64,000 bases of DNA from the NCBI RefSeq assembly GCF_900109075.1, contig NZ_FNYS01000009.1, positions 46,039 to 110,038 on the forward strand, in the 5' to 3' direction. This document shows, in pieces, positions 3,413 through 59,698 of the stretch; positions within the stretch are counted from its first letter, which is position 1, and each line of letters begins with the position of its first letter. Origin of the DNA: Myroides marinus (GTDB lineage Bacteria; Bacteroidota; Bacteroidia; Flavobacteriales; Flavobacteriaceae). Below the pieces are notes generated by a model, which saw only the letters and a list, made by a program, of their open reading frames with translations, was not told the DNA's origin and ran no database searches. The translations under genes and the position numbers were made by a program.

Positions 3413-3483
3413 CTTGGACAATTCTTGGACAATAGCTAGAGATTAGTTGACCTAAGACTATGTTTGCCCATGGATTGTCCTTG
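3413..3483. repeat. 11-bp unit array, locus 1
   Basis: Two direct 11-bp units, CTTGGACAATT (3413-3423) and CTTGGACAATA (3424-3434), then a 27-bp spacer, then two adjoining inverted units. The inverted pair reads CAAGGACAATC and CATGGGCAAAC on the minus strand (3473-3483 and 3462-3472). The same 11-bp organisation with related unit sequence occurs at 39195-39293 and 59418-59498. Function unknown. Confidence 0.65.
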
Positions 3484-38973: not shown

Positions 38974-39194
38974 ACTTACTGTGTATCTCTAAAATGGAGA
39001 AAACACCTCTTTTTTTAAATAAAAAGGGGGTTTACACGTCCAAAAAGTAAAAAAGTAGTTCACTTTTTTCTCGCACTAAAAGACTAAAAAACAACACAAA
39101 ACACTCAACAACAACACCTTATACAAAATAAAATCAAAATACTCCAAAACACTAAACGCTCTCTTATCCCAGTAACCACAGGCTTTCGAAGCAA

Positions 39195-39293
39195 TTCCTT
39201 TCACAGTTCTCCCATGATTCTCCCATTTTGCTCTACTAGAGAGGCGTTTTGTGAAAGAACTGTAAAAGAACTATGGAACTATCCTGGAAGAAA
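39195..39293. repeat. 11-bp unit array, locus 2
   Basis: Three inverted 11-bp units in a row (39195-39205 TTCCTTTCACA, 39206-39216 GTTCTCCCATG, 39217-39227 ATTCTCCCATT), a 22-bp spacer, then four direct units (39250-39260 TGTGAAAGAAC, 39261-39271 TGTAAAAGAAC, 39272-39282 TATGGAACTAT, 39283-39293 CCTGGAAGAAA). On the reverse strand the inverted ones read AATGGGAGAAT, CATGGGAGAAC and TGTGAAAGGAA. No coding frame uses this stretch. Confidence 0.75.
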
Positions 39294-39404
39294 CTATCAC
39301 ACATATTACACTTAAAAACACTCTATACTTCTTATAAATATTTCTGTAGATTTTACTTAAACTTAGACTGAGATTAAAATATTACAAAAGAAAAGACACA
39401 AAAA

Positions 39405-39440
39405 AAGGTCACTAGCTGCTGCTAATGACCTTTATATTTT
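39405..39440 (+). terminator. Intrinsic-terminator-like hairpin without an obvious gene
   Basis: Stem AAAGGTCA/TGACCTTT followed by TATATTTTTT on the plus strand. No plus-strand gene precedes it for 5 kb, so it may end a small RNA or be a relic. Confidence 0.55.
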
Positions 39441-39473
39441 TTAAGAATGTTTTCTGTTTATACTGTTACACTT

Positions 39474-59256: not shown

Positions 59257-59417
59257 CTTTACTAATCTTTGATTTACAATAAAAAGATGGGCATACCATA
59301 CATTCCTTTTTATTGTCTCGTTATCTACTCTTATATATAGTTTTTCAGTCACTTAATACCTATTTACTTTTAATATCGAGACATATTGCTATGGGGTAAA
59401 TCAATATTGATAGAATA

Positions 59418-59498
59418 ATACAACCATAATGAGTCTATTAAAATCCCATGTTTTAATAGACTCACTATGGACTCATCATGGACTCACTATGAACTCAC
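59418..59498. repeat. 11-bp unit array, locus 3
   Basis: Two inverted units (59418-59428 ATACAACCATA, 59429-59439 ATGAGTCTATT), a 15-bp spacer, then four direct units: AATAGACTCAC (59455-59465), TATGGACTCAT (59466-59476), CATGGACTCAC (59477-59487) and TATGAACTCAC (59488-59498). The inner arms also form a 13-bp perfect stem GAGTCTATTAAAA/TTTTAATAGACTC. No coding frame is involved. Confidence 0.8.
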
Positions 59499-59698
59499 AC
59501 CAACTAAAATCATTATTAATCTGTCACGCCCTACTATAACTGTACAACTATAGTTAATAATCCTATTATTTACTATACAGATAGATAACTGATCTACTTA
59601 TGACTATAGTACACTCATTTAGTCACGCTAAACACATTCTGTAATTACATTCTCTAAAGTAATCCCCTTAAACACTATAAATTTTAGTAACTTTATGA

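Follow-up and report, generated by a model that had tools for sequence, protein, structure and literature searches.

MITEs and other non-autonomous repeats are multicopy noncoding elements with subfamilies. REPs, another kind of repeat, are described as single palindromes of 20 to 40 bp that carry a terminal tag, GTAG or CGTC (PMC3733652), and they are reported as targets of the IS3-family elements IS1397, ISKpn1, and ISPsy8 (PMC1525189). Tandem units are known from two other settings: CarH proteins are described as binding 11-bp direct repeats, three or four in tandem (PMC9304148), and the TAACTGA heptamer repeats are described as intergenic, with a period of 7 nucleotides, a fixed unit, and many sets per genome, including some in Bacteroidetes (PMC4679880).

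Here we analyze arrays of 11-bp units in Myroides. A preliminary description of these arrays knew of no described element of this form, and our search of open-licence papers on 11-bp repeats, interspersed palindromic repeats, and IS-target repeats likewise found no description of the Myroides arrays.

Arrays of 11-bp units at three intergenic loci

The window is the whole stretch of DNA that we analyzed, 64,000 nucleotides from Myroides marinus. The preliminary description placed arrays of 11-bp units at three intergenic loci in the window, and all three are present there. Locus 1 has two direct units, CTTGGACAATT and CTTGGACAATA (positions 3413-3423 and 3424-3434, + strand), and two inverted units (3462-3472 and 3473-3483, - strand). 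Locus 2 has three inverted units (39195-39205, 39206-39216, and 39217-39227, - strand), a spacer (39228-39249, + strand) with a GCTCTA that is common to three orthologues too, and four direct units (39250-39260, 39261-39271, 39272-39282, and 39283-39293, + strand). A 20-bp A-rich tandem repeat lies immediately before locus 2 (39078-39117). Behind locus 2 is a terminator-like stretch (39401-39453), which matches two places in genome G146, one of which is the orthologous site.

At locus 3, the two inverted and four direct units of the preliminary description were correct, but two further degenerate inverted units had been missed. Inverted units -4 to -1 lie at 59396-59406, 59407-59417, 59418-59428, and 59429-59439 (- strand), as placed by the per-unit consensus and by covariation in the stem; the left arm of a 17-bp stem lies inside them, at 59423-59439. 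A spacer or loop of 15 nucleotides (59440-59454, + strand) is followed by four direct units, AATAGACTCAC, TATGGACTCAT, CATGGACTCAC, and TATGAACTCAC (59455-59465, 59466-59476, 59477-59487, and 59488-59498, + strand), and then by an A-rich tail, ACCAACTAAAA, which can be counted as pseudo-unit +5 (59499-59509, + strand). The direct units are matched by R1, a covariance model that we built from an alignment of 15 copies of the locus 3 type. R1 matches positions 59409-59512 of the window (C22:105447-105550) with E = 4.4e-24, this copy being one of the 15 from which the model was built. Positions 59522-59582 (+ strand), 23 nucleotides behind the last unit, contain the relic of an IS3-family transposon's left end.

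We scored the arrays with a measure of our own and compared them to dinucleotide shuffles of each intergenic region. The observed score was reached in 0 of 100 shuffles for locus 2 and in 0 of 100 for locus 3. It was reached in 4 of 100 shuffles for locus 1, which is therefore marginal from the window alone. A tandem-repeat finder picks up the three arrays only partly. When we scanned the window for self-matches at a fixed lag, loci 3 and 2 were the top two intergenic stretches at lag 11 (32/55 and 29/55), and locus 1 did not appear. The best intergenic stretches at other lags also reach 29 to 30, so locus 2 is not proven by the lag scan alone.

Relatives of the arrays decide that they are real. 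Relative to mononucleotide shuffles, the self-match at lag 11 had z = 10.8 for locus 1 with its six dispersed relatives, z = 8.6 for locus 2 with its three orthologues, and z = 31.8 for 37 copies of the locus 3 family from the window's own genome; among the lags compared, only the doubled lag of 22 approaches lag 11. The proposed 11-bp register is thus real: it is kept in relatives, and a transposon sits at one phase of it.

The units of the three loci had been described as related, but the loci belong to three families of 11-bp arrays. R1, which was built on locus 3 copies, does not find locus 1 or locus 2 in the window's own genome, at E ≤ 10. The shared unit that had been proposed, YATGGRnnnAY, fits the locus 3 family but not loci 1 and 2, which belong to other families with other units, and the proposal is weak overall. 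Locus 1 matches six dispersed places in genomes G181, G146, and G320. The intergenic region that corresponds to it also holds an array in each of these genomes, with related but different units (CTCGACAATTC ATGGACAATTC in G146, TAGGACAATAA TAGGAGAATAA TAGGACAATAA in G181, and TAGGACAATTT TAGGATAATAA in G320). Similarly, the region that corresponds to locus 2, which was located from both flanks in G320 and from the right one in G146 and G181, holds an array in all three genomes, with GTTGAAGAAGT or CTTGAAGAGGT among the units. These two loci represent two further families that share the 11-bp period.

Copy number and anatomy of the locus 3 family

The locus 3 family is dispersed across the window's own genome (G000, 4.16 Mb). 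An exact 22-mer pattern of two units had 24 matches in G000 versus none for the reversed control, and if one mismatch was allowed, it had 46 matches versus 5. R1 had 72 matches at E < 0.01, which represent 41 distinct places, most of them matched on both strands. There were 76 matches at E ≤ 10, and the few beyond E < 0.01 were above E = 1. At E ≤ 0.01, the family is found in 15 of 299 sampled genomes of the same genus, including G000, and the named carriers are mostly Myroides. Arrays with the same layout are present in records of Myroides phaeus, M. albus, Myroides sp. NP-2, and Flavobacterium endophyticum.

The consensus layout is four inverted units (the outer ones being degenerate), a spacer of 14 to 15 nucleotides that a 17-bp stem closes, four direct units, and an A-rich tail. 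We parsed 103 arrays from G000, G146, G181, G320, and other genomes (105 loci were started, and two of them, L177 and L095, gave no array). The spacer is 14 nucleotides long in 82 of the arrays, 15 in 20, and 13 in 1, where the finder allowed 11 to 18. In the consensus of the 103 arrays, the degenerate outer inverted units keep a TAT...CA core, which is clearest in G320. Among the first 15 copies, the number of direct units is four in 13, three in 1, and five in 1, a nearly constant number; exactly four units in 13 of 15 copies speaks against the earlier idea that the arrays grow by local duplication.

The sequence of the unit varies by genome. TATGGACTCAC is found in G000, G181, G320, and G282; TACGGACTCAY in G146 and in part of G000; TATAGATACAC in G018; TATGGGAGCAC in G242 and G216; TATGCGATCAC in G020; and further types elsewhere. 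For the window's own genome, we analyzed 37 arrays, which are the 41 places minus L120, L125, L127, and L131 (L125 gave no array and the others were excluded beforehand). Sixteen of the 37 have TATGG units and 21 have TACGG units. Two outliers in this genome, L127 (C38:1745) and L132 (C13:393096, which scored only E = 1.3), have a TATACTTGCAY-like unit and possibly represent another subfamily.

If the longest reading frames are taken as genes, then the left neighbors of the 37 arrays present their 5' end in 21 cases and their 3' end in 16, and the right neighbors present their 5' end in 19 and their 3' end in 18. Thus, these arrays have no preferred orientation relative to the flanking genes. 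A strand rule along the chromosome of G146 was also unclear (26 versus 18 of 44 arrays, with coordinate 1 assumed to be the origin). With neither a preference for gene orientation nor a clear strand rule, no role for the host shows itself.

Two known kinds of element were considered and rejected. In a CRISPR array, unique spacers separate the repeats, but these units are head to tail. As for a CsrA-type GGA motif, the TATAGA and TATGCGA units do not contain GGA (by eye).

Different units at the same sites

We identified seven groups of orthologous arrays by matches between their flanks, some of which are short (the shortest, 215 bp, at 74%). Three candidate groups whose flank matches are short or distant (L048/L170, L047/L182, and L040/L164/L184) were left out of the count. 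In six of the seven groups, the species differ in having TATGG or TACGG through most or all of the units: L053/L137, L050/L154/L174, L079/L136/L181, L114/L159/L187, L059/L188, and L055/L088/L169, in which the G146 array is mixed. The seventh group, L052/L186, has TATGG in both. In L053/L137, the spacer is still recognizable although the units differ. At the site of locus 3 itself, an array is present in G146, and none was seen in G181 or G320.

Where arrays at orthologous sites have different units, each follows the other arrays of its own genome, which is also at odds with growth by local duplication. The concerted change of the unit may have come about through selection exerted by a protein that itself changes, through gene conversion, or because newly spread copies replaced older ones.

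Most of the G320 arrays that we examined have a larger context and sit in the middle of a repeat of about 450 to 465 bp (L135 and L213-L222). Copies of this repeat are about 70 to 83% alike, which is less than the array, and they have TAnnTTTG promoter-like boxes that point inward at both ends. The repeat, with ends that are placed only approximately, is possibly a larger mobile unit. Another repeat, of about 100 to 160 bp and with copies that are 82 to 91% alike, lies near several G320 arrays (L214, at 255-414 relative to the array; L215; L222; and L088).

An IS3-family transposon at one phase of the arrays

Transposons of the IS3 family have TG...CA ends and a target repeat of 3 to 4 bp. At the locus 3 site in G146 (L188), the array is followed by an element in which both ends and two reading frames for transposase are present. 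These match HTH_Tnp_1 (PF01527, E = 1.2e-9) and rve (PF00665, E = 1.3e-18), which identifies them as the HTH OrfA and the DDE integrase OrfB of an IS3-family element. Its ends are TGTCTCGTCCTA...TAGGACGGGTCA, with ACC on both sides (by eye, in this one G146 copy), as expected for the family.

We searched for the end of the transposon (TGTCTCGTCCTACTATAACTGTACAG, with up to three mismatches) and found 36 places, 5 in G000, 20 in G146, and 11 in G320; the reversed control had no matches in these three genomes. Thirty of the 36 left ends were read. Eighteen of these lie 13 nucleotides behind the last unit and 5 lie 2 nucleotides behind it, so 23 of 30 are at one phase of 11. (One of the 23, L368, has a degenerate array.) Four other ends lie 11, 12, 14, and 23 nucleotides behind the array, the last of these being the relic at 59522 in the window, and the remaining three lack an array immediately behind them in that orientation. 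A looser, automatic table of ends also contains many chance matches at other phases.

The phase is kept on four unit sequences: TACGGACTCAY, TATGGACTCAC (in one case, L380), TATGCGACCAC, and CAGCCGACCAC-like units. Outside of the 30 ends, two more in G146 are at phase 2 (2105820, L090, and 2555770, L180), and another (G146:3105577, L427) lies 13 nucleotides behind a TATGCGATCAC unit (by eye). Two other records from Flavobacteriia, which have CACTATCCATA-like units, contain an end of this kind 2 nucleotides (L291) or 35 nucleotides (L331) behind the array; both distances are phase 2.

Some sites have the array in one genome and both the array and the transposon in another: the transposon-free arrays L050 and L154 are orthologous to the transposon-bearing L174, and L055 and L088 are orthologous to L169. 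Behind the arrays L134 and L176 (Myroides phaeus G216, G146), the transposon end has its first 11 bp doubled (TGTCTCGTCCT twice), which would fit insertion of a second copy at the next 11-bp step.

The stem as a probable DNA palindrome

We analyzed the 17 pairs of the stem in the alignment of 15 copies, using shuffles that leave the relatedness of the copies in place. Six pairs have changed on both sides, and 6 of 500 shuffles had as many. The number of paired cells, the number of cells with double changes, and the covariation score were not reached in any of 500 shuffles, while the number of further pair types was reached in 58 of 500.

An RNA that is made from one strand should tolerate G-U over A-C mismatches, while a DNA palindrome sees both strands alike. 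Across 103 arrays, the mismatches in the stem comprise 68 G-T, 67 A-C, and 137 others. Because there is no bias toward G-T over A-C, DNA is favored over RNA. Two positions of the stem hold a large share of these mismatches (28 G-T and 24 A-C), and this concentration reflects a preference of the motif, so the wobble test is suggestive, not final.

Within spacers of 14 nucleotides, pairing is above the expectation under independence at positions 3-12 (62 of 82 versus 45 expected) and 4-11 (60 of 82 versus 41). The pairing of an A-run with a T-run in the spacer is absent from 19 of the 37 own copies. In a search of the window against Rfam, only a tRNA reached the gathering score, and the arrays in the window match no described RNA family at that score.

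Similar arrays in other taxa

A wider scan for the pattern found at least 118 stretches with 11-bp arrays, and Bacteroidales and Cloacimonetes are among the taxa that have them. A copy in inverted orientation next to the array, which was seen in 0 of 60 shuffles, was present among the matches listed in 18 of 18 from Myroides, 2 of 9 from other Flavobacteriia, 2 of 2 from Pedobacter, 2 of 2 from Peregrinibacteria, 2 of 6 from Pacebacteria, 1 of 29 from Bacteroidales, 0 of 11 from Cloacimonetes, and 10 of 41 others (the grouping by taxon is our own). One of the two from other Flavobacteriia, L350 of Flavobacterium endophyticum, has the full layout. Given this distribution among the matches listed, we do not claim a wider class beyond Myroides.

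Several metagenome-assembled genomes (MAGs) have multicopy arrays of another sort. Bacteroidales MAGs (L244, L249, L252, L256, L259, L266, L292, L316, L323, L336, and others) contain CACTAATCACC-like 11-bp arrays with no clear hairpin, and similar multicopy arrays are found in a Cloacimonetes MAG (CACTAGGGGAT) and in a Pacebacteria MAG (CACTAAYGGCC). Viral contigs had 21 matches to the array pattern.

Discussion

The explanation that we put first, which we would credit and doubt in about equal measure, is that the arrays are a REP-like intergenic DNA platform, putatively bound by protein in helical register and used by transposons as a landing site. The arrays would act as DNA and not as RNA. 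The platform would comprise as many as eight 11-bp sites, in two sets of four that point in opposite directions from a spacer of 14 to 15 bp, and the 11-bp spacing would place the sites on nearly the same face of the helix. The most likely occupant of the array is an oligomeric DNA-binding protein, and the inner palindrome may be extruded as a cruciform. Four features, namely the period, the near-constant count of direct units, a constant spacer, and the phase of the transposon, point to a complex that is assembled on the DNA in helical register. The array probably came first, and the transposase or its partner would read it, so that the IS3-family transposon would land at a fixed phase, 2 + 11k nucleotides behind the last unit and usually 13. 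Because the phase is kept on several unit sequences, what is read could be the few letters that stay constant (the CA that closes each unit), a bound protein, or an extruded hairpin, and we favor a bound oligomer as the probable signal; CarH is a precedent for binding of this kind (PMC9304148). A single recognizing protein is disfavored because the window's own genome mixes the 16 TATGG arrays and the 21 TACGG arrays side by side. Two further points weigh against the platform: the palindrome in the spacer is not universal, and a palindrome can persist by template switching without any function.

We regard a further proposal with considerable doubt: that these bidirectional 11-bp arrays occur across the genus, that their unit is rewritten across loci in step with a fast-evolving DNA-binding partner, and that transposons read the helical phase and not the sequence. 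If this were true, then the rewriting of units by a partner would be a bacterial counterpart of the co-evolution of satellites and their binders. The unit differences at shared positions and the phase of the transposon ends make two questions testable: how dispersed noncoding repeats become homogenized in bacteria, and how an IS3-family transposase selects its target from structure or from a bound protein, not from sequence.

The arrays might instead be a non-autonomous mobile element of the REP or MITE kind, spread in trans by a transposase in successive subfamilies (such as TACGG and then TATGG) and with no other role. We consider this possible, if somewhat unlikely. It would account for dozens of dispersed copies, for two subfamilies in one genome, and for the lack of a visible array at the locus 3 site in G181 and G320. 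In addition, the array sits in the middle of the repeat of about 450 to 465 bp in most of 20 aligned G320 copies, and none of 11 long G320 loci that were chosen for this repeat matched the flanks of the 41 G000 loci over at least 140 bp, while L088, L154, and L159, which lack the long-repeat context, did match G000 flanks, as did L164 weakly. However, the Y1 REP-type transposase (PF01797), which is present in 16 of the 22 genomes searched, has no match in G000, G181, G291, G242, or G020, nor in the array-negative G029, and with no match in the window's own genome, we rejected a RAYT/Y1 transposase as the mobilizer. An informal look at the G320 alignments did not show target duplications or terminal repeats for the array. 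Also, arrays are in the same place in several species with differing units, and in L053/L137 the spacer is recognizable, which looks like change in place and not like a new insertion.

Two other explanations invoke a host function. A noncoding RNA family, or a hairpin at the RNA level in which the transcribed array folds and exposes single-stranded units to a protein or RNA, would fit the strong predicted hairpins with compensatory changes and the terminator-like hairpins that, by eye, follow closely on several copies. Nevertheless, we judge it improbable, given equal numbers of G-T and A-C mismatches (68 versus 67), the Rfam result for the window, arrays that have no preferred orientation to genes, and outer inverted units that, going by their consensus, keep the motif rather than complementarity. 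It is more doubtful still, to the point of being very improbable, that the arrays are operators at which an ordinary transcription factor binds tandem 11-bp repeats, as CarH does, and regulates the neighboring genes. Tandem 11-bp sites are described as operators (PMC9304148), and the positions of the arrays are common to several species, but about 40 copies are placed alike at the starts and the ends of genes, and the eightfold head-to-head layout exceeds what an operator needs.

Comparison with known systems

Under the preferred reading, as a DNA platform, the arrays can be set beside four described systems. Like the CarH operator, they line up four tandem 11-bp sites along the same face of the DNA, but CarH sites, as far as they are described, overlap the promoters of few genes, while the arrays are at about 40 places per genome, in two head-to-head blocks, and with another motif. 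Like the TAACTGA heptamers, they are short intergenic tandem units with many sets per genome; however, the heptamers are described as lying mostly just upstream of start codons in the main genome studied, and the account of them predicts no structure for the repeats. The arrays share multiple copies and subfamilies with MITEs but, in our informal look, showed neither terminal repeats nor target duplications.

The arrays also resemble REPs, PUs, and BIMEs, which are likewise dispersed, intergenic, palindromic, and present in many copies, with an IS3-family transposon inside or next to them at a single defined position. REPs as exact targets of IS3-family elements (in the cases reported in PMC1525189) are the nearest precedent for the transposon, and the arrays share with REPs an intergenic location, many copies, and insertion sequences at a fixed point. 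The REP tag is not a feature of the arrays: within 8 nucleotides of the foot of the stem in 103 arrays, GTAG and CGTC occur on the 5' side in 2 and 3 arrays and on the 3' side in 2 and 1. Unlike REPs, the arrays are about 100 bp long and combine a 17-bp stem with direct units and inverted outer units, for up to eight 11-bp units in register. They also have a near-constant number of direct units, a unit that is specific to the genome, and a transposon phase that is kept on four unit sequences. The arrays are a REP-like repeat with an internal ruler.
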